Source: Selaginella tamariscina
Lineage: Eukaryota; Streptophyta; Lycopodiopsida; Selaginellales; Selaginellaceae
Assembly: GCA_003024785.1 (NCBI GenBank)
Contig: PUQB01000228.1
Location: 491,597-555,596 of the forward strand
Reading direction: 5' to 3'
DNA: 64,000 bases
This document shows positions 15,889-64,000 of the stretch, one piece after another; the first letter of the stretch is position 1; every line of letters begins with the position of its first letter. A program made the position numbers and the translations under genes. The notes under the pieces are model-generated. The model saw nothing but the letters and a program-made list of their open reading frames with translations. It was not told the DNA's origin and ran no database searches.

Positions 15889-15890
15889 AT

Positions 15891-15902
15891 TGGTATCGGA
15901 GC
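15891..15902 (+). other. Gypsy primer binding site
   Basis: TGGTATCGGAGC lies 2 nt after the LTR end. It differs by one base from the usual TGGTATCAGAGC complement of initiator-Met tRNA. Confidence 0.8.
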
Positions 15903-24553: not shown

Positions 24554-24724
24554 CATAGTTACGAACACGAACACGGAACACGAACACGAGCCTTAGATTT
24601 CAAGAACCCGACCACAGAACACGAACACGGAACACGAATGGCTCACGAATATTCTAGTGAATATTCTAAGAATATTCTAATTTTAATTCTAGAAATATGC
24701 TACTTTTTATTATATATAAACTAA

Positions 24725-26763: not shown

Positions 26764-27118
26764 TAATTATATTTTTATAAAGTAATATTCATGTTAGTAT
26801 TAGTTTAATATTATAGTTACAATCGTTCCACGTACACATACACATACACGTACCCAATAGGATGATATCTCTTGTCTGGATTCCCAGTAGCATAACCTTT
26901 AAAGTAGAAATAGCGAGACACTACATAAAGAGTGCCTAGGAATGTAGCGGCAACTGGAAACTGTTAACTAATAAAATAAATAACTAATGAAAATATTAAA
27001 TTAAAAAAAAAATAAAGTTTAATTAAATGCACAACCTTGAGACCTTGAGAATTGAAAGCGGCAACCGCGGCGAGCAAGATTAAGGAGATGGAGTCGAAAT
27101 AGGTGCACAAAACCTTCC

Positions 27119-27544
27119 AAAAATCAGCACCATGCTATCCCCCTGCAAATCCACTATTCACTTGTATGTGTCATCATATATAATATCTACTGTGTTATCT
27201 ACAACGTATATATGCTCTTTCTCTATAAAAATCAGCACCATGCTATCCCCACTGCAAATTCACTATTCACTTGTATGTTCATCATATATACATATATATT
27301 ATGTTGTCTACAACGTATATATGCTCTCTCTCTCTCTCCAAAAATCAACACCATCCGCAAATCCACTATTCACTTGTATGTGTCATCATATATACATATC
27401 TATTGTGTTGTCTACAACGTATATATGCTCTCTCTCTCTCTCTCTCAAAAAATCAGCACCATGCTATCCCCTACAAATCCATTATTCACTTGTATGTGTC
27501 ATTATATATACATATCTACTGTGTTGTCTACAACGTGTATATGA

Positions 27545-27547
<3 letters not shown>
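27119..27547. repeat. Tandem repeat inside hAT, unit about 110 bp, four copies
   Basis: Each unit begins AAAAATCAGCACCATGCTAT (shortened in the third), then CAAATCCACTATTCACTTGT, then TCTACAACGTATATATGCTC, ending in a CT run. Copies start near 27119, 27228, 27341 and 27448. The CT run lengthens from unit to unit. Confidence 0.85.
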
Positions 27548-27593
<46 letters not shown>

Positions 27594-27692
27594 TCTCTCT
27601 CTCCTCTCTCTCTCCTCTCTCTTCCTCTCTCTCTCTCTCTTCTTCTCTCTCTCTCTCTCTCTTCTCTCTCTCCTCTCTCTCTCTCTCTCTCC
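27545..27692. repeat. (CT)n low-complexity tract
   Basis: About 150 bp of almost pure CT/TCTC on the plus strand following the last tandem unit. The apparent reading frames across it are artefacts. Confidence 0.95.
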
Positions 27693-28156
27693 ATATATAT
27701 ATATAATATATAGATTTTTGCATACGGATGGAGTCAGAGGACAGTGATGCCAAAGCTACAATGAACTGCATTTAAATCCGTTTAAAAAAACTCACCAGAA
27801 TTGAGGATCTTCTCATGTTCAAATCCATTGAATACTAAATAAAATGCTAGCTCTCCAAAATGTTGCCTTCATCAGAACTGCACCACACTTATGATGAACA
27901 GCATGAGATATATAGAATCCTGTAGAATGAAGATGAACTCACCAGATTCAACAAGCCCTAGAAAATATTATTATGTGTGCCCTAACCCTAAATTGGTGTT
28001 ACGAACACAGGCCGTGGTCCCAACAACCACGGCCGGGATCACGGCCCATGTTCGTAACAGTATTTACTGTTCATGAACACGGCCGTGGGAACACTACCCA
28101 TGGCCATGTTCATGAAACACGGTGAACACGGCCGGGATCCGACCGTGTTCGTAACT

Positions 28157-29222
28157 ATGTCTTACATAGCCATTGTCGCACTTGCACTTGCACTCGCATG
28201 GAAAGTGTTTTGCATTGTGAAGAGGAAAGAGGGCCAGGTACATAGCGTCTCTGGATCCTGTGAAAGACGTCGCAAGATCCTTTGGTACTTGCGGTAGAGT
28301 CCCATTCCTGTCCCAGAAGGCACTAGAGCTGGGAACCATACGCACACTGGGTATACCCACATCACCAACTTGCTGTTCAAGACCAAGTACGGTCTCAAGG
28401 AGCCCGAGAAACGGGCTGCCGAGACCAACATTCTGGTGGCGGAGATGATCAGCCACCACGTGGATAGCGAGCGTGGCTCCTATGCCGTGCGCAGGCTGAA
28501 TGGGATCCATGCCAAGTTCAAGATACCCAACCACGAGTTTGTGTATGTACTGTGCTTGAATGTGGTGCACACCATCGACTTTTGTAGTAAGTTTGGGTTC
28601 AGGCGTTGGACCCAGAGCGAGCAGCTGGCCGCTTACACAGTGTGGCACGATGTGGGTGTGAGAATGGGGATGAAGGACATCCCCCACAACATTCAGGCTA
28701 TGAGGGATTTCATTCAGGATTTCGAGGCCAAAAATGCAGTGTTCACCGAGCAGAACAAGAAGATTGTGCAAGAGCTCAAGCACTTGGTGCTGGACAGCTT
28801 TCCAAACTTCTGCAAGAGCTCAAGCACTTGGTGCTGGACAGCTTTCCAAACTTCATTCAACCCGTCGTGGAGGCTGGTGTGTGCTCCATGATTGACTCAA
28901 GGATGAGACACGCCGTGGGTCTACACAAGCCACCCATGCTTGTGGAGTGGATGATATGGATCCCTCAAGCTGGTGGCCGGGACCTTTGTTTCCTTATTCA
29001 TGCCTCCAAGGAGCGTGCAGAATGCACAAGGGAGTATTCAGGTGGACTGGTGCCCCAATCCTGCTGCAAATCCAGACCTACTCAGCAATTAAATGGCAAT
29101 GTTTATGCGCCTCCTGCATTCCAGAAGGGGTATAAGCTCTCCGAGCTTGGCGCACTTAAACACGGGAAGCTTGGCCTCGACACGACGGAGATGTCTTGTG
29201 CCCGTTTACGCACTTGCATTGA
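28157..29222 (+). pseudogene. MpaB/Lcp-family oxygenase, copy 1, frameshifted
   Basis: Matches copy 0 from the start codon to the C-terminal CPFTHLH-type end. The ATG at 28157-28159 is supplied by the hAT terminus (ACTATG), and the frame then reads MSYIAIVALALALAW. Breaks include AAGAGGAAAGAGG near 28225 (2 nt missing), missing bases near 28290, a 44-bp tandem duplication at 28767-28854, and smaller indels near 28955 and 29090. Between breaks the MpaB-type motifs (RLNGIHAKF, FGFRRWTQSE, VWHDVGVRMGM) are intact. Probably non-functional, unless some indels are assembly errors. Confidence 0.85.
28767..28854 (+). repeat. 44-bp exact tandem duplication in oxygenase copy 1
   Basis: Unit TGCAAGAGCTCAAGCACTTG... 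at 28767-28810 is repeated exactly at 28811-28854. Since 44 is not a multiple of 3, it shifts the frame. The same duplication is in copy 1' (32888-32975) and in no other copy. Confidence 0.95.
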
Positions 29223-29860
29223 CCAAACATATATTGAAAATTATATTCTTTCATCCGTTTGTCTTATTCTTAAATATTACATGATGCGTGTACAAACAAA
29301 CAATCTTGTATTGACCTGGTTTTGCTTCTGTCGTGTGTGGCATAAGTAGTAGGCAGTTTTATGGATTATATACACTGTAACCTTTCATTTTTAAGATTGA
29401 TACTACTGTGCTGATGTGTACTTATGTTACGCTATTTAGCTCCAAAAAGGTGCTTATTTTACACAATTTGCCTAGAGAAAGATTGCCCTTATTATATATT
29501 TAAATTGAAATGTCAGTTTTATTATAGACATATGTATCTTTCATGTCTTACATCATTGCAATAAAATAATTTCTAATTACTTTTTGCATTAAATAAAAAA
29601 AAATTATATTTCAAGCTTCATGCACACTTAAAAACTTAATATTTATTTGCTGTATTGGAGCGCAGAACTGAGTAATGTTTTATAAGTTTATCTCATGGAA
29701 AGCAATTTCTTAGAAAAACTTCTATAAAATATAAACGATTATTCATTTCTTATTTGAATTCTAATTACTAGTTTATGCTTTAGAAAGACATTACTAATGA
29801 TAATTGATTAAAAGTATAATAATTAAATGTTTTATAGAACTTAAGTCCAAGAATTTAGTA
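29223..29860 (+). repeat. Conserved 3' flank (tail) of oxygenase copy 1
   Basis: Reverse complement of 31895-32515 and related to the other tails. It begins right after the stop codon. No gene seen. Confidence 0.75.
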
Positions 29861-29869: not shown

Positions 29870-31890
29870 TATATCATATAATGTACATAATCATATTAAA
29901 TATAGTTATTAATTTATATAAATTTATTTAAATTATGTATTTACAAAAGAAAAACATGTTAAAAAGAAGTAAATATGATAATCAAATGGATTTCAATAGG
30001 TGTGTATGTATACTTTTGCATTTGTTTAATTTAATAAATTTTGCAATATAAAGATATTATAAAAATTTGTATACTTGAGATTTTTAATTACTTGTCATTC
30101 GTAAAAAGCATACATATATTAGTCTTATAAATTAACATATATATGGTTTTGGGTTTGGATTATAAATTTAAATATAAAGGAATTCAAACTTAAAAAGGTT
30201 TAAGTAAAAGGAAACACATGATGCCATATGTAGTTGCCATCAAAGTCATAGTACGTATTCTTGTTTCTGTACGTATGACATGCAGTCGGGATGCATCCTT
30301 TTGGCATGGATGTCTGTAAACATCTTTTATACATAGCACACACGCTGATACAAATATACATACAATTCGACACACACAACACACACATATGCATTATGAT
30401 GTCATAGTGATGCCAAGAGAGGTGTGTGTCATAAAATATTACACAAGTTATATAATTATCTATCTACCATAATACGCTTGTTTTATTGTGTAAAACTATG
30501 CAAAACATGTCACTAAGAAGATGCATACGCACAGCAAACGCAGATTATACATATTAGTGAGATGTAATATGGCTTCGAAATATATTATTATATTATTGAA
30601 TTATGTAATTTTATAAAAATTATATAAATTATATGCATACAACTTTTGTAAAAATGAAAATATTGATATGTTTATTCCAAAAATATTAGAAAACATAGAT
30701 TTTGTCATGTGTATTAATTCATATAAAGAAAGGATATTTAATCACTGTATTGAAATCCTTGTGTGGATATACTTTTTGCATTTATTTTAATTTAATAAAA
30801 TTTCCGCAATATAAATATATATAAAAATTTGTATACTTGAGATTTTTAATTACATATAAAGGAATTCAAACTTAAAAAAGGTTTAAGTAAAAGCACTAAT
30901 ATAGTAAGACATGTTATACCTCTCTTGCTTCAAAAAGGGGCATATATAGGAGCATCGTAGTTTTCTGCCATGGTATGGTTCTTAAGAACAATTTAAATTA
31001 TCTATTTTTTCCATAGCATGCTACATAAACTTTCAGTATCACGATCAACATTACCGTTTCAAATGTTAAATCAAAAATCATGCAAGCACAAACAAGTAAG
31101 GACCACTTATATACAAATATATGAATTAAAAACATAACTTAACTAATTTATTTATTTACCTTTTCTTATGGGAATATATCAAATATGTGTAGAGCTAGGG
31201 AAATAATTGTACTATTGGTTATGGTGTAAGAGTAAGTAATTTTCCTATAGGGTGAAGCATATTGAAATCGATTTACCAATATTTCTGTTTCGCAACACTA
31301 GTAAAGAAGACTTTTATATTTTGGATTTTAAATTCAATACCTGGCTTTATAAAAAATTTATATTAAGAATTTATAATTTTAAGTTTTTTCAAGTTCGTGA
31401 TAGATAAGGGTTCTTTTGGTCATATAAGGTCTTTGCACACGTAGATGCCACTCTGTTTAACTCTATGTTAAACCACGTCACTGCCTACCATGTCACCTCT
31501 TTAATTGATATGGTCGGTAGGTGGGGCACCGACACGTGGCACCCGTATTATTGTAGTCATTTGCTAAACTCAATGAAGTAGCATAAACATTTAATTGTGT
31601 AGTTGCATTAAACATATATATATATATGAGTTTGTTTAAGTCTCTGGCACACACACACACACACATATATATATTAATTAATATGCTAAACTATTTAATT
31701 AGATGAAAATACAGGTCTTTTATTTAACTGGAGGAGTCTCTTATCCTAGAGAACTAACAGAGGATTTATTAGCTGGTAATTGATTAAGCTAAATACGATG
31801 TGTGTATGTTATATACTCTTCAGTCAATCACACAAACACACAAAAGGTGAGAAATTGGTAACAAACTTCATAACAGTATACTCCTTGGAC
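29870..31890 (+). repeat. Loop A, copy 1
   Basis: AT-rich spacer between the tails of copies 1 and 1', in the same orientation as copy 0's loop and reversed relative to 50465-52490. The phrase AGGAATTCAAACTTAAAAA occurs at about 30178 and 30858, so part is internally duplicated. It includes a (CA)n run near 31652-31665. The small cysteine-rich minus-strand frames at 30190-30394 (also at 51947-52141) have no recognised product. Confidence 0.75.
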
Positions 31891-31894
31891 TAAG

Positions 31895-32515
31895 TTCTAT
31901 AAAACATTTAATTATTATACTTTTAATTAATTATCATTAGTAATGTCTTTCTAAAGATAATACTAGTAATTTAGAATTCAAATAAAAATGAATAATCGTT
32001 TATATTTTATAGAAGTTTTTCTAAGAAATTGCTTTCCGTGAGATTAAACTTATAAAACATTACTCAGTTCTGCGCTCCAATACAGCAAATAAAATATTAA
32101 GTTTTTAAGTGTGCATGAAGCTTGAAATATTAATTTTTTTTTATTTAATGCAAAAAGTAATTAGAAATTATTTTTATTGCAATGATGTAAGACATGAAAG
32201 ACATATGTCTATAATAAAACTATGACATTTCATTTAAATTATAATAAGGGCAATCTTTCTCTAGGCAAAATTGTGTAAAATAAGCACCTTTTTGGAGCTA
32301 AATAGCGTTAACATAAGTACACATCAGCACGTAGTATCAATCTTAAAAATGAAAGGTTACAGTGTATATAATCCATAAAACTGCCTACTACTTATGCCAC
32401 ACACGACAGAAGCAAAACCAGGTCAATACAAGATTGTTTGTTTGTACACGCATCATGTAATATTTAAGAATAAAGACAAACGGATGAAAGAATATAATTT
32501 TCAATATATGTTTGG
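31895..32515 (-). repeat. Conserved 3' flank (tail) of oxygenase copy 1'
   Basis: Mirror image of 29223-29860, completing the right arm of the palindrome centred near 30880. No gene seen. Confidence 0.75.
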
Positions 32516-33593
32516 TCAATGCAAGTGCGTAAACGGGCACAAGACATCTCCGTCGTGTCGAGGCCCAAGCTTCCGTGTTTAAGTGCGCCAAGCTCGGAGA
32601 GCTTATACCCCTTCTGGAATGCAGGAGGCGCATAAAACATTGCCATTTAATTGCCTGAGTAGGTCTGGATTTGCAGCAGGATTGGGGCACCAGTCCACCT
32701 GAATACTCCCTTGTGCATTCTGCACGCTCCTTGGAGGCATGAATAAGGAAACAAAGGTCCCGGCCACCAGCTTGAGGGATCCCATAATCATCCACTCCAC
32801 AAGCATGGGTGGCTTGTGTAGACCCACGGCGTGTCTCATCCTTGAGTCAATCATGGAGCACACACCAGCCTCCACGACGGGTTGAATGAAGTTTGGAAAG
32901 CTGTCCAGCACCAAGTGCTTGAGCTCTTGCAGAAGTTTGGAAAGCTGTCCAGCACCAAGTGCTTGAGCTCTTGCACAATCTTCTTGTTCTGCTCGGTGAA
33001 CACTGCATTTTTGGCCTCGAAATCCTGAATGAAATCCCTCATAGCCTGAATGTTGTGGGGGATGTCCTTCATCCCCATTCTCACACCCACATCGTGCCAC
33101 ACTGTGTAAGCGGCCAGCTGCTCGCTCTGGGTCCAACGCCTGAACCCAAACTTACTACAAAAGTCGATGGTGTGCACCACATTCAAGCACAGTACATACA
33201 CAAACTCGTGGTTGGGTATCTTGAACTTGGCATGGATCCCATTCAGCCTGCGCACGGCATAGGAGCCACGCTCGCTATCCACGTGGTGGCTGATCATCTC
33301 CGCCACCAGAATGTTGGTCTCGGCAGCCCGTTTCTCGGGCTCCTTGAGACCGTACTTGGTCTTGAACAGCAAGTTGGTGATGTGGGGTATACCCAGTGTG
33401 CGTATGGTTCCCAGCTCTAGTGCCTTCTGGACAGGAATGGGAACTCTACCGAGTGCAAGTACCAAAGGATCTTGCGAGCGTCTTTCACAGGATCCAGAGA
33501 CGCTATGTACCTGGCCCTCTGCTTCCTCTTCACAATGCAAAACACTTTCCATGCGAGTGCAAGTGCAAGTGCGACAATGGCTATGTAAGACAT
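32516..33593 (-). pseudogene. MpaB/Lcp-family oxygenase, copy 1', frameshifted
   Basis: Inverted partner of copy 1. The start ATG at 33593 reads MSYIAIVALAL. It keeps a long intact middle (RLNGIHAKF through FTEQNKKIVQELKH) but has a one-base deletion in the CTGGGACAGG run near 33427, the same 44-bp tandem duplication (32888-32975) as copy 1, and further indels near 32575 and 32635. No transposon interrupts it and its TATA box (33671-33679) is intact, so it would be transcribable. Probably a pseudogene, unless indels are sequence errors. Confidence 0.85.
32888..32975 (-). repeat. 44-bp exact tandem duplication in oxygenase copy 1'
   Basis: Units at 32888-32931 and 32932-32975 are the reverse complement of the duplication at 28767-28854. 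Shared only by this arm pair. Confidence 0.95.
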
Positions 33594-33639: not shown

Positions 33640-34041
33640 ATGTTGGATGCGGAGAGCCTTAACCATGTAGCTATTTATACGTCACTTATCAATGCCATGT
33701 GGAACATGTTTGGGACTGTAGCCACCGTACGTAACGCTAGTTTTGACACGGCGTTGTTAATTATGCTTGCATCTAACAAGGTATACACAACACTGGAGTT
33801 TTGTGTAGCTATAAGTTACTGATTGTGATAGGCTTTGGCTTCAATATGTGTACCGCCGCTGATGCCATTCTGCATGTTTTCCTTACGTACCACTGTTTAT
33901 GAAAAAGATCTATCCACCCCAAGGCTTGACAAAGTTCACGTGTTCATGTTGTACCCAATAACTTCAGGTGGCCACACACGTACTCCTAGATTGAGGGCCC
34001 CAATTGAGGGGAACTGCTTTTTGATCAGAATCGTCAATTGA
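33640..34041 (+). CDS. Candidate two-exon mini-gene divergent from oxygenase copy 1', unknown product
   Basis: Same structure as at 24095-24496: exon 1 at 33640-33780, a possible 51-nt intron 33781-33831 (GTATAC to GATAG) with an in-frame stop, and exon 2 at 33832-34041, all in phase, about 116 residues. Start codons of this frame and the oxygenase are only about 46 bp apart, head to head. Exon 2 alone is also open at 39435-39641. No signal peptide or family was recognised. Confidence 0.3.
33671..33679 (-). promoter_or_regulatory. TATA box of oxygenase copy 1'
   Basis: CTATTTATA on the plus strand is TATAAATAG on the gene strand, 78 bp upstream of the ATG, with the ACGT-core TGACGT just upstream of it. 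Confidence 0.75.
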
Positions 34042-39694: not shown

Positions 39695-39703
39695 CCTTGT
39701 TAG
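39695..39703. repeat. Left 9-bp target-site duplication of the MULE
   Basis: CCTTGTTAG, repeated at 48625-48633. The empty site is seen at 24354-24365 and 57235-57245 (ACCTTGTTAGATGC). A 9-bp duplication is the Mutator hallmark, although G/C runs at both ends leave 7-9 bp possible. Confidence 0.85.
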
Positions 39704-39905
39704 GGGGCACGGCGAAATTCGAGCGCAGGTCAACGAGCTTGACCTAGATTTCCGAATATTCTTGAATATTCCGTTGTTCCGTACGATTTCCGTCTAGATA
39801 TCTCGAATATTCTGTACGGAAATTTTTCGTACTGCCAAGTGTACACACAATTGGACCTTCCAAAATTTTCAAAATATTCTAGAATATTCTAGTGCGGCGG
39901 CCGCA
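39704..39905 (+). repeat. MULE left terminal inverted repeat with clustered motifs
   Basis: Starts GGGGCACGGCG and contains at least five AATATTC/GAATATTC words plus CGTACGATTTCC and CTGTACGGAAA, ending at AGTGCGGCGGCCGC. The same words recur in reverse in the right end, so they are candidate transposase (or ParB/methylase) binding sites. Confidence 0.75.
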
Positions 39906-40064
39906 TACAAAATATGGTAGTATATTTTTGTTGTATTTAAAGAAATATATGTTAAATTACTTAAAAATATGCTAAATAAAATTACCATTAAAATTTATAT
40001 TGAAAATTATAAGTTTGAAATAACAAATATAAAACCGAAGCTGTTTGAAAACAAACCAAACACA

Positions 40065-43000
40065 CTAAATAGATGGTGGAGGATGGAGGTTCCTTGGTAG
40101 CATCAATAAAGAACTTAGTTCACGGGGTGCAAGTGTACGACGTTGCAAATGCTTGACAACTCGAGGATCAGCTCCCAGTACACGCTTGTAAACAAAATAC
40201 ATATGTTTGCAAGGCACCCACTGACGACCATTGCAGAACTCCGAGCATGAACAAGATGGTGCGCTACAAATGACAACCCAAGCAGATGTATGGTCGTTGT
40301 CACATACTCTGAAGCGAATGCATGTTGGAGGATCAACCACGTCAACTTCTGCGACATATGCTCCCAACGTCAAACATGCTTCAAAACTTACCTGTTGTTT
40401 CTTAGACATCCCTAAAGGTGTTCTTGTTGCACGACCACTTGCAGGAACAGGAGGTCCACGAAATTGTGCAGGGGGTGTTGAAAATCCAGTGACTCCAACA
40501 GGAACTGAAGGAACATGAGGTGTTGAAAAACCTGGCACTCCTGCATGAGCTGAAGGAAGCCCAGCTAGCATAAAACCTGATCTTGCCAGATCATTGATCT
40601 CCATTGCTATCAGCTTCGTGCCCACTTGAACTTTCCAAACCGAGGTAGAAGCTGGCGGAGAAACAATAGTTGGTCTTGGATGTCTGTTGCAAAGCATGTT
40701 TGTTGGACAAAAATACATCATTTGTGAGCGAAAGCATTCTTCACCAGTTTCTTTGTCATTGTATCTGATCCTTCCAAAAAAACAAGGAGCAGCCACTCGA
40801 TTACCACTAGGACTGATCTTTTTGTCACAAGCACTCCACTGACCTCCTGAAGAGGGAAAGCCTGCCAGACATTTCACAGAACTTCTTTCACCACATCTTC
40901 TAATCGCCCATTGTCCAGGTGTAACATCTTGTTCTTCAACCAGAACATATTCTTCATGTTCTTCTGCAAGTTGAAAATCCAATCGTCGCTTCCGTCTACA
41001 CTGTGTTGGAATAACCTGTTCACTATAGAAGATGTCCGGTCGGTGGGATCGTTCAGCCTCTGACCCCATATTTCTTTGCACAGTGCGATGTTCAACATTC
41101 GTGGCAGCCACAAAAGCAGTATCCTGCATGCTTGATGGAGCAACATCTTCAACTAAGTCGATGATAACCTTTGCTGTAGGTGTTGTTGAGTTAGCATTTG
41201 ACATTCTTCTCTCGAACCTTGCTGAGAGCTCCTCTGAAGTCGGCCCGGAACCACTATACCTTCCATCTCTAAAAGCCTTCACAAGAGCACATTGTCGCAC
41301 TGATTCAGTCAGGTCGTGGATTGTAGCTTGGTACAATGAAATGTATTTTGAATCTCTAGCCCTCCTCCATCTTCCGTGAACAGACTCCGACTGGTTTGTC
41401 ATGGGCACAACCCTTGCAGCATTCTCCGGCATGCTTTCAAGAACAACATTTGAAATATGATTCTTCTGTCTTTCCCACCATGAAAACCACGTCTGCATAA
41501 CTCCAACATCCTTCACATTTTCATTCCAAAAGCGGAAAAGATTATTTTCAATTTCTTCACGATCAGTTGTTGATGTGGCTGTTGGCCATGATCTCAAAAG
41601 TTGAAGATGTTGTTGTTGATGTTCAAGAGGGACCCACTTCCTTGTCACACGTTGTATGGCTTGTTCATAGTGAAAGATACAGCTCCGTTCACGTCCAGGA
41701 ATTTCTTGGCCATTAAAGAACACATTCCTAATTGCTTGCCAGATCGCTCCTGCTTCATCGGACATAAACCCAGCGAACTGCACATTGTAGATTCCCTTCT
41801 CGGAACAGACATCCAACATAGCACGAAAAAACTTCTCCACAGCTCCAGCCGTTTGTCTCTTCATGTCACCATAAGCAATGGTGGATAATCGGCGCACACT
41901 ATAAAATAATCAAAGAGTTAAGCAAACAACAAAAAAGATAACATCTTACTTTGGGTCGTAAACATGCAATGCCAGAGTGATCCACTTATCAACAACACGG
42001 TGTGTGTGATCAAGTAGAACCCAACTCTTCTGCAAAGGGCCAAGAGGAGGTTGGCACATCCTTACATAATCGATTCCAGAACCTGGCCCTGAAACCGTCA
42101 TCTTAAAAACTAATGCCTGGTCGTCTGAACCACGGAAATTCATCCCAGGATAGTGAATCACGTGGATGAATGGGATAGACAACCTTCGTTTCAGCTCCAA
42201 TAATCCATCAATATTCTCTGGCATTTCAGCAGCTTCTCTTTGCGGACGCTACCCATTGACGAACTCTGCATCAAAGGTATTATCAAAGAATGCTCAGCAC
42301 AAAGTAAAACTCTAATTGTACTTCGGATGTTTGATAATGGTTGCAAATGATCCATGAGCTTATCCCAACTTCCAGGCTCAGAATTATCTAATAGAAAACC
42401 AAAGATAGCATCTTTACATGCTGCCATTTCGATGACTCTTGGACTAGCTCTGGGAGTTCTTTCTGTTGCATTCTGGACCGCCATATGCATTTCTTCTTTG
42501 TTCGATGCAGAAACACCATCACCCACTGGATGTGAATGTTTTCCCTGGTGGATAAACAATCTAGTCTTGGTTATGTCGTCTGGGAAAACGCAAAACGCCA
42601 CAGCATGACAAACTTCAAGGCACAATGGATTTTCTTTACAGAAAAAACATGTCAATCCTTTTGCCAGTTTGTCGATTGAAGGTGGGGAAACAATACATCC
42701 TTTCCATTTAGTGCAGTTCGGAAATCCTGCCTTAGAAGCAGGGCAGTCCGGGTTGATACAGCAAAGGCTCCCAACACATTTGCTCCTGGACACCCTCGCT
42801 TGAAAATTCCAGTTGCTGGTCGTTCCTGCTGTCCAGGTATGTCCATCCTCTTTCCGATTCATTCCTTTGTATTTGTATTCGGAAGGAGGGAGCTCAAAAA
42901 TGACATCCCCATCATACGCAATAGGCAATTCATTTGTATGAATGATCGTGGAACCCTCGATAAGAATTCTTCCCTTTTTGCAGGTATTAGAAGTGAAAAG

Positions 43001-43282
43001 GTTCTTCAACGTTGAGTATTCAGAGTCAGAAGCAACGACAAGCTTAAACAATGGTCCTTCATCCGGTAACAAAACATATCCTGGATTATCCTTCCCTCCA
43101 GCATCTTGGTCCTCGTTTATTTCGATCTGTAAAGCAGATTGCCCATGAAGAAGTTTAAAAAGACGAACACTTTGCCAATCAAAAATGCCAAAGAACGTTC
43201 TAATCTGATTAGTAAGAATGATTCCAACACCATCTATCACAGGAACATCGTGATCCAAATTGCCGTAAACAATCCTGGCCAT
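40065..43282 (-). CDS. Mutator-like (MULE) transposase
   Basis: Minus-strand gene from ATG 43282 (MARIVYGNLDHDVPV) of about 1060 residues. The N-terminal part (to 42191) has Cys/His-rich segments (CCINPDCPASKAGFPNC; CFFCKENPLCLEVCHA; HQGKHSHPVG) suited to DNA binding. The catalytic region follows, with candidate DDE residues in WVLLDHTHR, FAGFMSDEAGA and NQSESVHGRW, plus CIFHYEQAIQR between the second D and E. The C-terminus holds a SWIM zinc finger (CSCSEFC...CKHMYFV, about 40190-40260). A 51-nt intron (41899-41949) joins exons in phase. The junction at about 42190-42290 needs either another short intron or a one-base shift. The family cuts and inserts its own element with about 9-bp duplications. 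Confidence 0.85.
41899..41949 (-). other. 51-nt intron in the MULE transposase gene
   Basis: GTAAGATG donor and TTATTTTATAG acceptor on the minus strand. Removing it joins HVYDP to VRRLSTIAYG in phase between two open frames that otherwise end and start here. Confidence 0.8.
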
Positions 43283-44298
43283 TTTGCAAGCAGTTACCAC
43301 AAACGTGACAGAAAAACAACAACATTACTTAATCATCTTTTGGTAAATATCGGATATTACCATTTCAAAAATTCACAATCATGACTCAACGTGGGCGAAT
43401 ATTTAATTCAAGGAAACGTATAGATCTTAGATGCTAATATAGTATAGCACTTCACGTAGAGATAGAGCAATCTTTATTGTCTTTTAAATAAATGTGTGTC
43501 TAATCTACATTCATCTGACATATTTATTTATGACTTGTTTATATTCTGTTAATTTATTTATTATAATTATATAGTTATTTGATCCAGTATTTTATCAAAT
43601 GTAGATGTTGATTAATACTTGCTCCGCTACCAATTGTCAATTATAAATACATATTTTTACACGAATATTTATTTAATTATATAATAATATGTTTTTTTAA
43701 CATACAAATTTTTACTTAAATATGTGTTTGTATTTGTATCCTTTTATATAGTATGTTATTTATCGTAAGTATTATATATACTGTTGTATGGTTTAATTAA
43801 ACACAGTTTTATAGTTAAGGGTCAAAGGGTTAAGTGTTAGATTTTAGGGTAAAGGTTCAGGACTACCCATTCTTCTTCTCCATTCTCCATTGTTGAGAGA
43901 GGGCACTTTTGTTCTTTTTTTTGCGGCGACAAGAGGCTAGTGTGAGCGTCACGGCGACATGGCTACAGGTAAAATCTTATATATGTGTATAGTAATTTCT
44001 GTGAATGTATGTGCAAATTCAGTAGGATTTCTTTGTATTCACAAACGCACGCGCGTGTGCACACACACACACACCTCCGACGCATGAGTTATTGCCGATT
44101 TCGGCAAACACACACACACACACACACATTTCCTGCCAATTCGGGCAGGAAATCCGTGTGTGTGTGTGGTGTGTGTGTGTGTGTTTTTGCGCACACACAT
44201 AAATAACATTTTACACACGTATGATTATACAACATTAGACTTGTATACATGTGTGTGTGTATATAATATATATATATTTAAATACATACTTAAAAAGA

Positions 44299-44340
<42 letters not shown>

Positions 44341-44689
44341 GTATGTATGTATGTATGTATAAGTATATGAATTTAAGACTTGTATATATGAGATGATGCT
44401 TTTTCGTCTGTATATACATGTGAAGAGATATGAATATACCCATATTCTCTCACACAGACACATCACAAAACACAAACAACATTGCACACACACACACATA
44501 ATCAACATTACACACATACACAAGGAACATTATATAGTGAGCACACACACAAACAACATTACACGTATAAATATGTGTGTGTGTGCGTGTGTGTCTATAT
44601 ATATTGATAGGTATACATATATAGTAAATGTGTGTCCATAAATTAAAACAACTCACACACACACACTTATCAGTTGTTGTAATTGCAGA
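43283..44689. promoter_or_regulatory. Divergent intergenic region of the MULE
   Basis: The 1.4-kb region between the two start codons, so promoters for both genes should lie here. It is AT-rich on the left. A possible methyltransferase 5' exon ends at ATGGCTACAG|GTAAAATC (about 43961-43970), with an acceptor TAATTGCAG at 44680-44688. That spliced leader would contain only a tiny upstream ORF before ATG 44690. Microsatellites fill 44055-44640. Confidence 0.5.
44055..44640. repeat. Microsatellite cluster: (CA)n, (GT)n, (TA)n, (TATG)n
   Basis: (CA) runs near 44058-44073 and 44109-44128, (GT) near 44155-44182, (TA) at about 44300-44337, TATG repeats at 44338-44360, and further CA/GT runs near 44482-44500 and 44572-44595. 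Part can fold back, since CA and GT blocks flank CCTGCCAATTCGGGCAGGAA. Small frames here are artefacts. Confidence 0.9.
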
Positions 44690-47600
44690 ATGAGACAAAG
44701 GCAGAGTAAGAGACTACGAGATAAATACAAGACTTTGACACTTCAAGAACATATCGTCCAAGAAGCTCTTGCAGATATGGCTCCAAAACCTCGTGGCAAG
44801 AAAGGAGGCCGAGGCGCCAAGCAACAACTGCAACACAAAGAGATGATGCCGACGAACAATGAACCTGTGGATAGTTCGCAAGTCATTGATGAACATACTG
44901 TGGTGAGTGAATGGATGCCTAGAAATAGGGAGATTGCAGGAAGCTCTGCAGAACACGGTAATGCAGAGGAAGTACCGGATATTGATCTTGGTAGTAAAAT
45001 GTTCAATAAGAAGAGGAAACTGGATGCTCCTGAGGATGTTGCCGAATCATATGCAATTCCGGAGCGGCTGACACTTGAGGCTCCATCCAAGCTTCTTCGG
45101 GATCTTGTTATTCGGTATGACACAGATATTGACACATCGCTACAAGGACGAGACCACTACGTTCCAGTTGAGCTTGGTGAGCCTCCGCGTATCCCGGTTC
45201 ACAGGTTGCTCCCACACCAACGTTTGAGGAATGTCACTAAGGACGGCGTGAAAGACCTTGTTGGATGGATTAGAGCTGAAGGATTTTACCAGGAGACGTC
45301 AGTGTTCACCTTATCTTTCGGACCACAGCTGAGTGCAGACGAACGCCGAAGTTGGAATGAGTCAGAAGCACAGGTCGATAGAGAGTTTGAAGCGGATTTG
45401 CATAAGCCAGCATTTTCTGCATGGTATCGATTTCTGAAAGATGCAAAGTTTCTGGTGTGGGATGGGAATCATCGTCGGGTTGCTTTGAACACTTTGCTTG
45501 CTGAAGAGCCAGGTTTGAAATGGACTTTGCGTGTACGTGCAACACTCATAGCATCCACAGTGCAAGAGGAGAAGAGACTAATCGCTGCTTGCAATCGGTT
45601 GAATGAGTAAGTGACTTGTTTGTTTCATTATTTAAATACTAAATAAATGTTGTTTTGTTTTGCAGAGCAACTGCTCGTGTGGTTCCTACAACAATCATTC
45701 ACACCTTGCAGTTCTTACGGAATTGTTGTGTGAAGTCTGCAGATCTTTCTACCGAATCTTCTTCGCGGGATGCCGGAGGAAGATAGAAAAGCTGTGGAAG
45801 TGTGGAGATCGAACAGAAAAGAAGACGTTTGGTACGAGTATCCAAAGACGACATTGGTGAAGATTTTTTGGGAGGTAATCTTTTCTTCTTCTTTTGACTG
45901 TTTTTTGATTTTCGGTTTCTTTTGCAGAATCAACTGAAGCGACAAATCGCTACAAAACTTGCGAACAGAAAACCAAACCAGACAGAATCTCAGATCCTCT
46001 CCAGCGTTTACAAGACATTCACAGTTCGGATGAACAAATTCCTCACCATTGCTGATCCGGCGGTCGGTGAAGATTGGTTCAAGGCGATCACAGATATCAC
46101 TATCAAACCATCAACGAAGCAAATAACTCTGGAGAAGCTTCAAATGCTCGCGAAGTCCCAGCTTCCTTCCAACGTCAAGGTTGATATCCTTGGAAAGCTT
46201 GTGCACATTCAAGAACGTGGCGTTCTTGAGAAGCTGGTGAACATGACGGAGAAAGACAAGAAGGAAGGTGTCACCGGCTGGCCTGACAAGGACTTCATCA
46301 AGTTTTTGCACATCTTTACTTACTGGTTCCAGGTAATTTAATATTTATATTTTTCATTTTTATTCGTTTTATCGTGCCAGGTCGCGGAGGCAGCTAAAGA
46401 GCTTTTGGTCGAGCATGTAGAGGAGTTCATGACATGGTATATGAAGATGCACAATGAAATTAAGTTGGATATGTACCAGAACATGCTCGAGAACAAGGAG
46501 TTCGGTGCGACAATTCCACCTCCTCGACTATTTGAGCTGGAAAAATCTGCAAAAAGAATGGCATTCAGGCAAGTTTTTTTTTTTGTTTCTTTACAGATTT
46601 TTATCTATTTTTACAGGTTTTTAAAATGGAAGAACGATGCACTCCCTGAAGATTTCAAAGAGTGGATGGATGTTACCAAGGATTCTAGCATGTGGAGCCG
46701 GTTGTTACGTGATATCAGTGATTACGAAGTGGAACACTGTCCTTTCTGGCTGGATTTCCTTCCTGGTGACTGTCCCGAATGGGAGATGGCCAGCTATAAG
46801 ATACACAAGGATGATCGGCGAGAGCTATTATGGAAGAACGACAATGCTGCAAGGAAGCTCCATGTGAAGATGGATATCAGGTATGCTAGATCGGCGAGCA
46901 AGGTCAGCAAGGGACAAGCTTCTTCTTCAGCCCCATCCTTCATCTCGGCTGGATTGGAAGAAGATGATATGTTGAGGATGGTGATGCCTGAGAAGGGAAA
47001 TGGAAGCTGGGAAATCATTCATGCAGATTCAGAGAACCTTGCAGTCCAGTACTTCAAAGCCGGAAGGCCTTTTCCGTCAGGATTGAAGGAGCTTGAGGAT
47101 TGGATCGTGAGTCACAAGTCAAGTTGGACTATTCATGTGTTTGGTGCGAAGCCTCCACCAAAATGCATCCAGGGAGCTGTTGATCTCGTTGTCATCGACC
47201 CGCCTACCGGATGCGTTGCTGAGGCAGGCGGGATGGTGGATCAATACACGAAGTTCTCGGATGCTTTGCTGAAGAACTTGGTGAACCTTGCTTTCGGGAT
47301 ATTAGACAGAGCTGGCCATGTGGTAGTGTTTGTGCTACCGGATGATGTTCTAGCTTTGAAGAACACTGCAGAAACTTGCAAGCTAAAGTTTCTGCAGATG
47401 AGTTATGTGCACACGACAAAGTCATGGGGATACCGTTTCTCTAGAAAGGTAATTCTTCTTTTTGAGAATGTCATTTTTTAATGTTTATTTTTTCAGGAAA
47501 GCATCATTGCCATGTGTATTTTTGGTTCCCCCTACTCTAAGGTTGCCAAGAACAAGGAGATCTTGGACACTCGCTACACTCTTCTTTTTGATGAGCCAGA

Positions 47601-48321
47601 AGATTTCCAGCTCCCATGGTATAATGTTGTTTGTTATTTCTCATGTTCTAATATTGTAACTTTCAGGATTTCAATTGGCCCGAAATCTCCCAAGTTGTTT
47701 GCGATGCTAGTGGAGAAGCTCACAAAGCCTGGTGGAACTGTTGTGGATCTAACAGTGGGAACCGGTGCTAGTATTCTTGCAGCTTTTCACACAGGGAGAC
47801 ATGGTTATGGAATCGACATCAACAAGGATCTGGTTTTAGCAGCCAGAGATGTCTTCAGGAAGGTCATTCCAAGTGTTACAGCAGCTGAAGGTGGTGGGGA
47901 TGATCAAGTTGTTTCCATGATTACTCCTTTTGATGAGTGGAAGAGGGCCATGGAAACAGAAGCACAGGATTTGCCTTTGGCTAGCGACAACGATGGAGAC
48001 CAGGATCCGCCTTCTCGAAACGACAAGGATGTTGTTACGGAGAAGTCCGTGGAGCACAACGACGAGTCATCAGATGAGTCAGCAGAAGAGAGATCATACG
48101 AGTCATCAGATGATGAGTGAGATTTGTTTTATCATTTCTTTGGTTTTAAACTTTAATATGTTTTCAGTATTGTTCTACCAGACTACGCTAATCAGATGGC
48201 AAAGAAAATGGTTGAAGAGTTCGAAGTTTACGACAGACAGATTTTGGAGAAACGTTCACGACACCGTAACAATGCATTCATTAACGACGAGGCACTGGCT
48301 GGTGGAAACGAGTCTTCATGA
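44690..48321 (+). CDS. ParB-like domain fused to beta-class DNA amino-methyltransferase (6mA or 4mC)
   Basis: Eight exons fit: 44690-45606, 45666-45874, 45928-46332, 46381-46568, 46617-47448, 47497-47618, 47667-48116 and 48168-48321, about 1090 residues. A basic, low-complexity start is followed by a ParB/sulfiredoxin-like domain (about 155-305; IPVHRLLPHQRLRN, then DGNHRR at 258-263, then AACNRLNE). The C-terminal part has methyltransferase motif IV VVIDPPTGC (near 767), then SPKLFAMLVEKLTKPGG as motif X and DLTVGTGAS as motif I (near 918), then GYGIDIN. Motif IV before motif I is the permuted beta-class order of bacterial and phage N6-adenine/N4-cytosine enzymes. DPPT lacks the usual aromatic fourth residue. 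Exon 2 needs a one-base shift near 45735-45770. The acidic tail and last exon (NQMAKKMVEEFEVYDRQ) are of unknown role. Confidence 0.82.
45607..45665 (+). other. Methyltransferase intron 1 (59 nt)
   Basis: GTAAGTGA donor, TTGTTTTGCAG acceptor. Joins the ParB segment ending NRLNE to ATARVVPTT. The other introns are 45875-45927 (53), 46333-46380 (48), 46569-46616 (48, GC-AG type GCAAGT), 47449-47496 (48), 47619-47666 (48) and 48117-48167 (51). Confidence 0.75.
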
Positions 48322-48624
48322 TTGAGTTATGTTTTTATTGTAATTTTATTTAGTTTGATGCGGTATTTATATAAAAATATAATTATAGTTATAAATATAA
48401 ATATTAAAAAAAAAAACATAAATATAAATATAAATATATAAATATATATGTCAGATTAACCCCCAAATTTGTGAAACTTTGACACATTACCGTGCCGCCA
48501 TGATTGCCCGCCCGCCGCACCAGAATATTCTTTATATGAAAACGAATATTCTGTACGGAATGGAATATTCCGGTACGACGGAAATCCGTACGCTCGGCAA
48601 ACTGCGCTCGGAAATGTCAAAACC
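48322..48624 (-). repeat. MULE 3' non-coding region and right terminal inverted repeat
   Basis: AT-rich 3' UTR (48322-48460) followed by the terminal repeat. In reverse complement it reads GGTTTTGACATTTCCGAGCGCAG at the end, then GAATATTCC, TACGGAAxxGAATATTC and CTGGTGCGGCGG, matching the left end in the same order. Confidence 0.8.
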
Positions 48625-48633
48625 CCTTGTTAG
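48625..48633. repeat. Right 9-bp target-site duplication of the MULE
   Basis: CCTTGTTAG, followed by ATGCAAGCATAATTAAC, the continuation of the oxygenase flank seen uninterrupted at 24360 and 57240. Confidence 0.85.
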
Positions 48634-48787: not shown

Positions 48788-49817
48788 ATGTCTTACATAG
48801 CCCTTGTCGCACTTGCACTTGCACTCGCATGGAAAGTGTTTTGCATTGTGAAGAGGAAGCAGAGGGCCAGGTACATAGCGTCTCTGGATCCTGTGAAAGA
48901 CGCTCGCAAGATCCTTTGGTACTTGCACTCGGTAGAGTTCCCATTCCTGTCCCAGAAGGCACTAGAGCTGGGAACCATACGCACACTGGGTATACCCCAC
49001 ATCACCAACTTGCTGTTCAAGACCAAGTACGGTCTCAAGGAGCCCGAGAAACGGGCTGCCGAGACCAACATTCTGGTGGCGGAGATGATCAGCCACCACG
49101 TGGATAGCGAGCGTGGCTCCTATGCCGTGCGCAGGCTGAATGGGATCCATGCCAAGTTCAAGATACCCAACCACGTTTGTGTATGTACTGTGCTTGAATG
49201 TGGTGCACACCATCGACTTTTGTAGTAAGTTTGGGTTCAGGCGTTGGACCCAGAGCGAGCAGCTGGCCGCTTACACAGTGTGGCACGATGTGGGTGTGAG
49301 AATGGGGATGAAGGACATCCCCCACAACATTCAGGCTATGAGGGATTTCATTCAGGATTTCGAGGCCAAAAATGCAGTGTTCACCGAGCAGAACAAGAAG
49401 ATTGTGCAAGAGCTCAAGCACTTGGTGCTGGACAGCTTTCCAAACTTCATTCAACCGTCGTGGAGGCTGGTGTGTGCTCCATGATTGACTCAAGGATGAG
49501 ACACGCGTGGGTCTACACAAGCCACCCATGCTTGTGGAGTGGATGATTATGGGATCCCTCAAGCTGGTGGCGGGACCTTTGTGTTCCTTATTCATGCCCC
49601 CAGGAGCGTGCAGAATGCCACAAGGGAGTATTCAGGTGGACTGGTGCCCAATCCTGCTGCAAATCCAGACCTACTCAGGCAATTAAATGGCAATGTTTAT
49701 GCGCCTCCTGCATTCCAGAAGGGGTATAAGCTCTCCGAGCTTGGCGCACTTAAACACGGGAAGCTTGGGCCTCGACACGACGGAGATGTCTTGTGCCCGT
49801 TTACGCACTTGCATTGA
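48788..49817 (+). pseudogene. MpaB/Lcp-family oxygenase, copy 2, frameshifted
   Basis: The ATG at 48788 reads MSYIALVALALALAW; the ALV variant is shared only with copy 2'. Open for 130 codons to PNH, then 2 nt are missing relative to copy 0 (ACCACGTTTGTG for ACCACGAGTTTGTG) near 49174. Further small deletions lie near 49455, 49506, 49570 and 49610. The motifs FGFRRWTQSE and VWHDVGVRMGM are intact in a second frame from 49140, and the C-terminus is intact from about 49650. Either a decayed copy or one with sequence errors. Confidence 0.85.
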
Positions 49818-50460
49818 CCAAACATATCTTGAAAATTATATTCTTTCATCCGTTTGTCTTTATTAAATATTACACGATGCGTGTACAAACAAACAATCTT
49901 GTATTGACCTGGTTTTGCTTCTGTCGTGTGTGGCATAAGTAGTAGGCAGTTTTATGGATTATATACACTGTAACCTTTCATTTTTAAGATTGACACTACT
50001 GTGCTGATGTGGTACTTATGTTAACACTATTTAGCTCCAAAAAGATTAAGTATGGTGCTTATTTTACACAATTTGCCTAGAGAAAGATTGCCCTTATTAT
50101 ATAATTTAAATGAAATGTCATAGTCTTATTATAGACATATGTATCTTTCATGTTTACATCATTGCAATAAAACAATTTTCTAATTACTTTTTGCATTAAA
50201 TAAAAAAAATTATATTTCAAGCTTCATGCACACTTAAAAACTTAATTATTTTATTGCTGTATTGGAGCGCAGAGCTGAGTAATGTTTTATAAGTTTATCT
50301 CATGGAAAGCAATTTCTTAGAAAAACTTCTATAAAATATAAACGATTATTCATTTTTTATTTGAATTCTAAATTACTAGTATTATGCTTTAGAAAGACAT
50401 TACTAATGATAATTAATTAAAAGTATAATAATTAAATGTTTTATAGAACTTAAGTCCAAG
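49818..50460 (+). repeat. Conserved 3' flank (tail) of oxygenase copy 2
   Basis: Same as 29223-29860 with small differences. Ends at the loop junction TTAAGTCCAAG near 50450-50460. No gene seen. Confidence 0.75.
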
Positions 50461-57194: not shown

Positions 57195-57377
57195 TCAATA
57201 ACTTATAGCTATACAAAACACCAGTGTTGTGTATACCTTGTTAGATGCAAGCATAATTAACAACGCCGTGTCAAAACTAGCGTTACGTACGGTGGCTACA
57301 GTCCCAAACATGTTCCACATGGCATTGATAAGTGACGTATAAATAGCTACATGGTTAAGGCTCTCCGCATCCAACAT
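57195..57377 (-). pseudogene. Exon 1 of the candidate mini-gene near copy 2'
   Basis: Encodes the same MLDAESLNHVAIYTSL stretch as at 24496 and 33640 and extends through the would-be intron to an in-frame stop. The matching exon 2 (about 56985-57190) has a small deletion near 57012, so this copy looks broken even if the gene is real. Confidence 0.25.
57338..57346 (+). promoter_or_regulatory. TATA box of oxygenase copy 2' (in the inverted segment)
   Basis: TATAAATAG preceded by TGACG, 82 bp upstream of the ATG at 57420. Intact, but now drives only the N-terminal part of the gene, which runs into a gypsy LTR. Confidence 0.75.
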
Positions 57378-57419
57378 CTCATCTCATCGTCTCCTCTAGC
57401 AAGAAAGAAAGAAAGAAGA

Positions 57420-58170
57420 ATGTCTTACATAGCCCTTGTCGCACTTGCACTTGCACTCGCATGGAAAGTGTTTTGCATTGTGAAGAGGAAGCAGAGGGCC
57501 AGGTACATAGCGTCTCTGGATCCTGTGAAAGACGCTCGCAAGATCCTTTGGTACTTGCACTCGTAGAGTTCCCATTCCTGTCCCAGAAGGCACTAGAGCT
57601 GGGAACCATACGCACACTGGGTATACCCCACATCACCAACTTGCTGTTCAAGACCAAGTACGGTCTCAAGGAGCCCGAGAAACGGGCTGCCGAGACCAAC
57701 ATTCTGGTGGCGGAGATGATCAGCCACCACGTGGATAGCGAGCGTGGCTCCTATGCCGTGCGCAGGCTGAATGGGATCCATGCCAAGTTCAAGATACCCA
57801 ACCACGAGTTTGTGTATGTACTGTGCTTGAATGTGGTGCACACCATCGACTTTTGTAGTAAGTTTGGGTTCAGGCGTTGACCCAGAGCGAGCAGCTGGCC
57901 GCTTACACAGTGTGGCACGATGTGGGTGTGAGAATGGGGATGAAGGACATCCCCCACAACATTCAGGCTATGAGGGATTTCATTCAGGATTTCGAGGCCA
58001 AAAATGCAGTGTTCACCGAGCAGAACAAGAAGATTGTGCAAGAGCTCAAGCACTTGGTGCTGGACATCTTTCCAAACTTCATTCAACCCGTCGTGGAGGC
58101 TGGTGTGTGCTCCATGATTGACTCAAGGATGAGACACGCCGTGGGTCTACACAAGCCACCCATGCTTGTG
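57420..58170 (+). pseudogene. MpaB/Lcp-family oxygenase, copy 2', N-terminal part
   Basis: The ATG at 57420 reads MSYIALVALALALAW. A one-base deletion near 57566 (CACTCGTAGAG for CACTCGGTAGAG) shifts the frame. The MpaB-type core then reads through RLNGIHAKF and, after another one-base loss near 57878 (GGCGTTGACC for GGCGTTGGACC), through VWHDVGVRMGM. It ends at CATGCTTGTG (58170), where gypsy LTR sequence starts. The C-terminal part is at 53104-53373. Confidence 0.85.
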
Positions 58171-58745
58171 CCGTGCCAGCCCACTTATTCACTTAGGAAA
58201 ACAGGGAGGGGCACATAAATAAGGTAGAGTATATGTAGTGAGGCTTCCTGGGTTCAAAAGAGAGCTCGTTAACCTCCTACCGGTGCAAGCTAAGCTTGTG
58301 TCGTTAAGGTGCAACCCTCTGTTGTGCCGCCCAACTACCATACGACAGGGGTACAACCCACCTAGGGTTAAATATCCTTATCGTTGGCAGGATCTTGCGC
58401 TTTGTGACGAGAGTACGTCACTTCCAAGGAGTTAGTCAGATTCCTTGGTCCGAAAACCTGTCACAAGCTCAAAGGTTGCCCGAGTTCACGTTCCGCAAAC
58501 TAGTGGTTGAGGCCTTGCTCCGGCCCCTCAACCACGCCAAGCTAGGAACGAACCTAACTCGGCTAGTCCGTGTCCTGATTCACAAGGTGAGTCTCGTTCG
58601 TGGACTTGGTCAGTTAGGGTTAAGTTCCTAAGGGTTGGGTTCCTAATACGGGTTACTTTACCAGATTCCGTGGGGTTTCCAAGAGGGGATTCCAGGGTTG
58701 GCACCTGGCAAGCCGCCTTTGTGGCACCAGGTAAAAACTCTGACA
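58171..58745 (+). repeat. Remainder of the 5' LTR, gypsy copy 2
   Basis: Matches 15306-15888, ending CTCTGACA at 58745, followed by ATTGGTATCGAGC as the primer site (one base shorter than copy 1). Confidence 0.9.
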
Positions 58746-59063
58746 ATTGGTATCGAGCAAGTTCTCTGCGGTCAGTAGGACTACCTTAAGTCGTAGGGTG
58801 TTTCAATGTTTAGATAACTCTAAATTCTTGATTATACTCTATTGCTTTGGTTGACATGTCTGTATTCTGCGCAGAGAGTTTGATCCTGTGAGTTGTCAAA
58901 CTTCGGAGAACACTTGCTCAGTGAGTCGGCGTGAGATTCTAGGTATGTCCGAAAGTCTTATGCTAGTTTAAGCTGATGTGTGTGGGTGTACAACCTGTGC
59001 AGGGTGTTTCCAACTTTCACATTGGGAATATTCTATTGAGTGTTGAAACTAGGGTTCAATACG

Positions 59064-60212
59064 ATGAGCAAAAGAAAGCAACCAGAGCCTGAGGCAGAGA
59101 GGGCTGTCGCAGAGGCTCAAAATGAGGAGATGGATGAGGCTGATCCAGGTCGACCCCCTAGAGTTAGACAACGACCTGGTTGGCGAGAAATAATGATGGA
59201 TGCCCTAAACGAACTTCGAGGGGATGTTTTGGGGTTGAACGACCGAATCGATAATGTTGCCGACGAATACTGCAGTGCCAGATGTTCCGCAACCAGACAC
59301 ACGGAAAAAAGAAGAAGAAGCATGACTCAGAGTCAGGTTCCTCTGAATCAGATTCTTCGACGGAAGTAGTGGTGGAGGTCCCAGTAAATTCAAACCGGTA
59401 AAGCCTTCGAATTTCATGGGTTCAAAGGATTACAAGGTTTTGGATGACTGGTTGTATGATATGGAAAGCTATTTCGAGGCTGCTTCCGTGAGAAAGACAG
59501 AAAAGGTTGCATGTGCCAAGCAGTTTCTTAAAGAAGAAGCTAAGACTTGGTGGCGAATTGTTGAAGGTGAACGTGGATACCGAAACAGCTGGAAGCACAT
59601 GAAAAAGGAGATCAAAAAGCAGTATATGCCGGATGATCTCGGTTTGCGATTGCGTGCTGACCTGGCACTTTGTCAACAGGGAGTTCGGGGAAGTCCATGG
59701 ACCACGTTTATCGATTCGAAAGTGTACGGCGATTGGTGCCAAATATGAGCGATGATGAAGCTCGAAGTTGCTTCATGGCTAGCTTGAATGAGAAGACGCG
59801 AAGGAAATCTTAAGGTACAAGCCAACAAGCTATCGGGAATGTCAAGAGGCAGCTCAAAAGGTTGCTTATGGCATGTCGTTAGAAGACTTGTACAAAGGGG
59901 AGGAAGCAAAACCTAAACAAGGAGGTTTCCTCCAAAGTCTGGGTTCAGAAGGTTTGATAGGCGACCAGATCAATCGCCATCAATTCGAAGTGCAAGTCCC
60001 TTTGTTGGCAGTTCCAAGTTTTCGGACACATCAAGACCCACCGGATTTCGGAAACCATTGGCGTTACCACCTCCTCAGCAGGCCAAAGGATCGGCTCCAA
60101 AGTCTGCTCCCCCGTTCCGCAGGCGGGGTCGTGAAATGTTATAATTGTATGGTCATTTTGCTAAAGAGTGTCCGGCACCCTCACAACAATCAGGACATTT
60201 CAAGGCGATGGT
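59064..60212 (+). pseudogene. Gypsy gag (copy 2), frameshifted
   Basis: ATG 59064 (MSKRKQPEPEAERAV) and open to 59369, so the shift present near 16380 in copy 1 is absent here. The gag domain is at 59416-59748 and on. The CCHC knuckle near 60138-60170 has lost about 9 bases (CYNC is followed directly by MVILL), so the nucleic-acid-binding motif is broken in this copy. Confidence 0.85.
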
Positions 60213-63752: not shown

Positions 63753-64000
63753 AGTGAACTTATTTCTTATTAACCTAGGGGCCGACAGACAACCTTAACT
63801 AGAGGCCTCCAATATAAATTCTAGTTAACTTAAAGAAATTAACTAACTTGTTGTCTGTGTCGGGTGACAGACTTTGCAGACGTGCAAAAGGTCTCCAAGT
63901 GACTTCTTGTCGCAGGTGGTGCCTCCGGCAGCTGAGTTGTCCTCAGTGAACGACGGTTCTGAAGTACTTGGCTTCGCGTAATGCAAGGGGGGTAATAAAA
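63753..64000 (+). other. Gypsy copy 2 3' untranslated region (to window end)
   Basis: Matches 20893-21146 after the pol stop. The polypurine tract and 3' LTR are expected just past the window. Confidence 0.8.

Follow-up and report, generated by a model that had tools for sequence, protein, structure and literature searches.

The closest described counterpart of the system treated here is Sola1-1_Ec32 of Ectocarpus, a DNA transposon with an accessory gene coding for a ParB-like/N4C-N6A methylase of 1104 amino acids (accessible text of PMC12477816). Among plant Mutator-like elements (MULEs), VANC of the VANDAL elements binds short motifs that are repeated in the noncoding sequence of its own copies (PMC10398659, in its accessible part), and a survey of MULEs, in the portion available (PMC6446971), gives a target-site duplication range of 8-11 bp and lists other second genes, the word "methyltransferase" being absent from its main text. 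Here we analysed a 64,000-nucleotide stretch of the Selaginella tamariscina genome (contig PUQB01000228.1, positions 491,597 to 555,596; hereafter the window), which contains an 8.9-kb element with a Mutator/IS256-like transposase gene and, divergently, a methylase-like second gene. In the host genome, both genes travel together in a recently amplified family. On balance, we favour the view that this is a young, high-copy Mutator/IS256-type family whose second protein, ParB/DndB-like in one part and beta-class methylase-like in the other, is an accessory factor that recognises the ends of its own element.

The host genome (300.7 Mb in 1,391 contigs) was searched with exon 5 of the methylase gene, exon 3 of the transposase gene and the DNA of the left end; the best 140 of 1,044 and the best 72 of 2,297 first-look candidates were scored for the two exons, and the best 40 of 128 candidates for the left end. 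Exon 5 has at least 147 matches, with at least 29 places carrying a full-length, 100% identical protein, and transposase exon 3 has at least 77 match rows, with at least 21 full-length places sharing the top score, the window copy being included in both cases. When 72 transposase places were compared with 88 typed methylase places, a divergently oriented methylase was found within 12 kb at 59 of the 72, with a spacing of 5.8-6.9 kb in 55 of these 59 pairs compared with 6.55 kb in the window. In the reverse direction, 50 of 74 methylase places have a transposase among the 72 scored. The left-end DNA recurs at no fewer than 40 genome places at 98-100% identity, and the methylase exon lies 3-12 kb inside, on the right strand, at 36 of the 40 scored left ends. 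Among 30 fetched methylase loci, 29 extend to the right end, the match in the other stopping at the equivalent of position 47923. The flanks of the fetched loci are all different, except that two loci have one in common. Direct duplications of 8-12 bp border 14 of 19 paired copies (exactly 9 bp in six; two of the 14 share one site), with lengths that allow slack in a terminal G/C run and counts made without a chance control; the other five, one with 6 bp and four with none, weigh against the favoured reading. Nine of 29 loci are identical letter for letter over 2,861 bp, and the family is probably active now, as judged from its sequence.

The second gene thus lies inside the transposon, on the strand opposite to the transposase, and moves with it. 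With its high copy number and its different flanks, the methylase does not behave like a single host gene. The original prediction was a single mobile unit carrying both genes, to be abandoned if other copies of the transposon lacked the methylase and the methylase sat elsewhere as a host gene; the linkage at 59/72 transposase places and 36/40 left ends, the shared ends, the target duplications and the varied flanks bear out the former and are not the pattern expected of the latter.

The boundaries of the window copy, likewise proposed earlier together with a 9-bp duplication and empty sites, were recovered by self-comparison of the window. CCTTGTTAG borders the unit 39704-48624 on both sides, which at 9 bp is within the length range of MULE duplications. 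Several paralogous copies of the element's host flank are present in the window, and four of these match both the left and the right flank with an overlap of exactly 9 bp at the insertion point, at about 11433-11441, 24355-24363, 33773-33781 and 57236-57244; because of this exact overlap, each of the four represents an empty site with a single copy of the target. Direct empty-site alignments agree with these overlaps, the fourth alignment having been seen in part. Since the left flank is 99.5% identical over 400 bp to one empty paralogue, the insertion in the window looks young relative to the duplications of the flank. Coordinates of the element and its parts are collected in Table 1.

Table 1. 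Parts of the element and its target site, in window coordinates.
Feature	Position	Strand	Details
Whole element	39704..48624	.	8,921 bp; from window self-comparison and empty-site alignments; many further genome copies
Target-site duplication, left copy	39695..39703	.	9 bp, CCTTGTTAG
Target-site duplication, right copy	48625..48633	.	9 bp
Left end	39704..39925	+	imperfect inverted repeat; four GAATATTC palindromes at 39754, 39764, 39805 and 39882
Transposase gene	40065..43282	-	distant Mutator/IS256-like; ATG at 43282; main exon 41909-40065 with an open frame of 614 codons; first intron ambiguous
Intergenic stretch between the divergent genes	43283..44689	.	AT-rich, microsatellite-rich; G+C 0.31
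Methylase-like gene, exon 1	44690..45606	+	ParB/DndB-like region (VWDGNHRRVAL)
Exon 2	45666..45874	+	frame-broken in window copy
Exon 3	45928..46332	+	
Exon 4	46381..46568	+	followed by GC-AG intron
Exon 5	46617..47448	+	methylase motif IV region (DPPT)
Exon 6	47497..47618	+	
Exon 7	47667..48116	+	SAM-binding motif I region (DLTVGTG)
Exon 8	48168..48323	+	with stop codon
Right end	48466..48624	-	imperfect inverted repeat; three GAATATTC palindromes at 48523, 48544 and 48563

The transposase had been predicted to be of MULE type, with candidate DDE residues and a SWIM finger; the homology observed is distant. The protein matches NCBIfam NF033543 (IS256) with E=1e-6 and positions 2-96 of the 99 in PF10551 (MULE) with E=0.013 when the core fragment is the query and E=0.054 when the whole protein is, a relationship to IS256 and MULE transposases that stays below the curated cut-offs of both models. 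By eye only, acidic residues are found in LLDHTH, SDEAGA and NQSESVHG, and a CxC...CxH SWIM-like motif at about 40253-40211; we take these to fit the catalytic core and SWIM finger of MULEs, and a Pfam search of the transposase found no SWIM match. The first intron is ambiguous, as many splice pairs preserve the frame. Classical MULEs of the host genome are well recognised by Pfam (77 PF10551 matches), yet a tblastn search (E 1e-3) of the element's proteins against eight fetched PF10551 loci of the same genome gave no match. The duplication, the ends and the distant homology make the carrier Mutator-like, and because these same-genome classical loci are not matched, we place it, on sequence grounds, on a divergent branch. 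A separate classical MULE family, from which the eight fetched loci were taken, is present in the genome, with 16 PF10551 matches of equal top score (e.g., C102:183580-183867 and C158:179831-180118). Within the element's own family, nine transposase rows end at query residue 483 (e.g., C548, C1026, C391 and C481), and seven of these rows have a 498-codon open frame, which suggests a still spreading sub-family whose C-terminus is different or shifted. The stretch between the two divergent genes is presumed to hold the promoters of both.

In the reading we favour, the second protein would be an accessory factor, encoded by the element and directed at the DNA of the element itself. With its ParB/DndB-like or its methylase part it would recognise motifs in the ends, the GAATATTC palindromes being the most plausible candidates, and would then either methylate the ends or, given DPPT, act mainly as a DNA-bound, non-catalytic factor that binds S-adenosylmethionine (SAM); the latter role is considered because the catalytic motif is altered. 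The outcome might be escape from silencing, or help for the transposase in finding or pairing the ends. A more specific version, which we regard as rather doubtful, is a self-recognition system in which the protein binds GAATATTC and marks copies or senses SAM, thereby protecting the element from silencing and guiding or counting transposition; if true, a eukaryote would here have an equivalent of the self-marking devices of phages or plasmids. Several observations weigh against the accessory-factor reading, and they are given below with the alternatives that they favour.

The terminal repeats of the earlier description are inverted, although imperfect: they pair over roughly 110 bp with a local score of 87. 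For 216 random pairs from the window the median score was 28; two of these pairs scored higher (185 and 488) and are taken to be window repeats. GAATATTC occurs 12 times in the window compared with 1.55 expected, namely four times in the left end, three times in the right end, nowhere else in the element, three times in the end of a hAT element and twice elsewhere. Seven of the 12 copies thus fall within the 381 bp of the element ends, whereas simulated ends held a mean of 0.01 and a maximum of 2 in 5,000 simulations. GTACGGA is found four times, all in the element ends (2.7 expected over the window), and the observed/expected ratio of CpG is about 1.7 in the ends vs. 0.68 in the window. The palindromes are present in most fetched genome copies, as would be expected of such young copies in any case.

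GAAnnTTC units form heat-shock elements, and sub-terminal arrays bind transposases. The palindrome may accordingly be a site for the transposase or for a host heat-shock factor rather than for the second protein, which would then act elsewhere; we regard this as a real possibility, somewhat short of likely. It draws on the position of the motif within the terminal repeats and on triple units with the pattern GAANNTTCNNGAA or TTCNNGAANNTTC, of which the window has three, all within the element ends. Yet all seven GAANNTTC matches in the ends are exact GAATATTC, which is more specific than a heat-shock element, and the arrays sit downstream of both genes, which start in the middle of the element and away from its ends. 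Because of this arrangement, we favour an end-binding protein over a promoter role for the palindromes, and a heat-shock promoter role of the ends is not favoured. A further difficulty for recognition by the second protein is that the unrelated hAT element in the window likewise has three GAATATTC in one of its ends. This element, at 24554-28159, has DUF659 and hAT dimerisation domains and, as read by eye, inverted ends CATAGTTACGAACACG and an 8-bp duplication TCTTACAT; its three palindromes are spaced 11-12 bp in the left end, and its right end has none. One GAATATTC is also found in each of two Gypsy-like copies (15305-21136 and 58172-64000, 97.5% identical), whose reverse transcriptase and chromodomain-like C-terminus were identified by eye.

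True DNA methyltransferase activity of the second protein, which would deposit N6-methyladenine or N4-methylcytosine on the ends (possibly in AATATT) as a self-label that guides the transposase or counters silencing, is possible but unlikely in our assessment. The methylase family itself speaks for it. The C-terminal part matches PF01555 (N6_N4_Mtase) with 29.3 bits, above the cut-off of 26.7, over profile positions 165-219 of 221, i.e., just the last quarter of the profile, and the phage methylase family phrog_67 is matched with E=1.4e-10 over both motif regions and in beta order. These matches identify a DNA N4C/N6A methylase domain, and the palindromes clustered in the ends would offer it a target. 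NCBIfam methylase models scored far below cut-off, and profile comparison with 11 phage enzymes aligned the SAM-binding part alone (54 columns). Motif IV of beta-class enzymes reads DPP followed by Y or F, and W is also allowed there. The element has DPPT instead, in the window and in the 14 open copies described below, whereas all 11 phage relatives keep Y or F at this position (nine DPPY, one DPPF and one DIPY), and no counterpart of their HPTxKP stretch can be recognised by eye. Motif I, DLTVGTG, keeps the glycines of the DPFxGSG type with T in place of F; 10 of the 11 phage enzymes have F, and because the eleventh, L006, also has T, the motif I change alone is not evidence of a disabled enzyme. 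DPPT is unchanged in the 14 open copies; in 18 further copies its T is kept in 16 and the full motif in 10, which in such young copies is no evidence of constraint. From the sequence, methylation activity cannot be assumed.

Recognition through the N-terminal part is likewise less secure than the ParB-methyltransferase fusion of the original prediction implied: the methylase half stood, and the ParB half was found to be weak. This part contains FLVWDGNHRRVAL and matches a DndB profile with E=5e-4, under the cut-off, DndB having been placed with the ParB superfamily (PMC10853773, in its accessible part). No ParB-like domain reached the Pfam cut-off, ParB_N was not reached, and hhalign profile comparison with the N-termini of five phage ParB-methylases gave no match. 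A single-sequence fold of exon 1 (mean predicted local distance difference test score, pLDDT, 39.5) gave no useful structural match and was too poor to use. We thus regard the "ParB-like" label as plausible, not proven. Searches of viral contigs, plasmids and phages for relatives gave none that is close, the best phage match being a single one with E=0.05, and the genome contigs searched gave one bacterial match of 30 residues.

The methylase gene consists of eight exons on the plus strand (44690-48323) and its product has about 1,000 residues. In the window copy the frame is interrupted in exon 2, a break that is absent from the earlier description of the gene. A mini-intron or programmed shift at this site is not favoured, as a different sequence, common to 24 of the 29 loci with both anchors, is found there. 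The predicted eight-exon model itself is sustained by the fetched loci, which were cut at the exon borders of the window and begin in the 3' half of exon 1: 14 of 30 are open through the last codon, and their proteins are the same from residue 61 of the fetched part onwards. Of the remainder, six lack an anchor and 10 are not open, at least two of the latter possibly being artefacts of phasing the cut exon 1. Old, diverged subfamilies were rejected as the source of 18 further loci with 52-93% protein identity, since these are 93.4-99.9% identical in aligned DNA codons and carry frame shifts. Relative to the window copy, these 18 have a nonsynonymous/synonymous ratio of 1.57 vs. 2.55 expected for random change, and stops make up seven of 300 changes vs. 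4.1% expected, a weak sign of constraint on the methylase gene.

These data also bear on the idea that the methylase gene goes back to a single capture and travels as a passenger without function, which we consider improbable. In its favour, the ratio is only modestly below neutral, and many copies, the window's included, are frame-broken in this gene. On the other hand, the eight-exon frame is open and identical in 14 of 30 copies, and ParB-methylase genes recur in unrelated transposon superfamilies (PMC12477816, accessible text).

The idea of two separate elements, or of a host methylase gene beside a transposon, is rejected by copy linkage and is very unlikely. In its favour, 13 of the 72 transposase places have no methylase within 12 kb, and 24 of the 74 methylase places lack a partner among the 72 scored transposase places. 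However, four of the 13 (C336, C793, C603 and C563) have a methylase at 12.2-13.6 kb by coordinates, the methylase accompanies 59 of the 72 transposase places and 36 of the 40 left ends, and copies lie in different flanks with duplications. As the best 72 of 2,297 transposase candidates were scored, this limit may account for part of the unpaired methylase places, and truncated copies are likely to contribute as well.

The element is inserted about 150 bp ahead of the start codon of a gene with a paralogue at 3779-4837 that matches PF09995 (mpaB-type oxygenase family). Paralogues of this gene region occur in both orientations at about 92-98% identity (e.g., 3779-4837, 28157-29851, 31884-33593, 48788-50460 and 57236-58170), and some of them seem broken or interrupted by transposons. 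The window has no Rfam match at gathering score and no tRNA.

With regard to novelty, the original prediction that no MULE with this cargo had been described holds for MULEs at most, as the cargo has already been described in algal transposons, and both the cargo and the idea of self-marking are in print (PMC12477816, in its accessible part). A literature search combining ParB, Mutator-like and methyltransferase found no paper, and no other title or abstract start among those searched describes a MULE with a ParB-methylase cargo. What appears to be new is the Mutator/IS256-like carrier, the evidence that it was amplified recently with its gene open, and the palindrome GAATATTC of the ends. That cargo of the ParB-methylase kind turns up in yet another, unrelated superfamily suggests that it has been recruited repeatedly and hence has a real function. 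With a young family, many near-identical copies with an open gene and a countable end motif, the question of whether transposon-borne methylases of bacterial type mark their own DNA becomes directly testable.

Compared with the phage ParB-methylase fusions and PHROG 67 methylases, the second protein of the element shares the beta-class motif order and partial methylase homology, but it is far longer, is encoded by eight exons, has DPPT and shows no detectable match to five phage ParB domains. VANC is not known to be a methylase. The VANDAL MULEs resemble the present family as Mutator-type elements with an extra gene and provide a precedent for accessory proteins that recognise repeats of their own motif; unlike the methylase-like protein described here, VANC induces loss of DNA methylation (PMC10398659, accessible text). 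Fungal transposons bearing TET/JBP and oomycete MuDR elements bearing SET are similar in carrying an epigenetic enzyme as cargo, which in those cases is a dioxygenase or a histone methylase and here is a bacterial-type N-methylase-like protein (PMC12730594, in its accessible part). The closest parallel is Sola1-1_Ec32, to which the element was likened by description, not by sequence: in both, a protein with a DNA-methylase part and a ParB-like part, the latter plausible in the present element, is encoded inside a DNA transposon on the strand opposite to the transposase, but Sola1-1_Ec32 has a Sola1 transposase and a length of 21.5 kb, whereas the Selaginella element has a Mutator/IS256-like transposase, a 9-bp duplication and a length of 8.9 kb (PMC12477816, as accessible).

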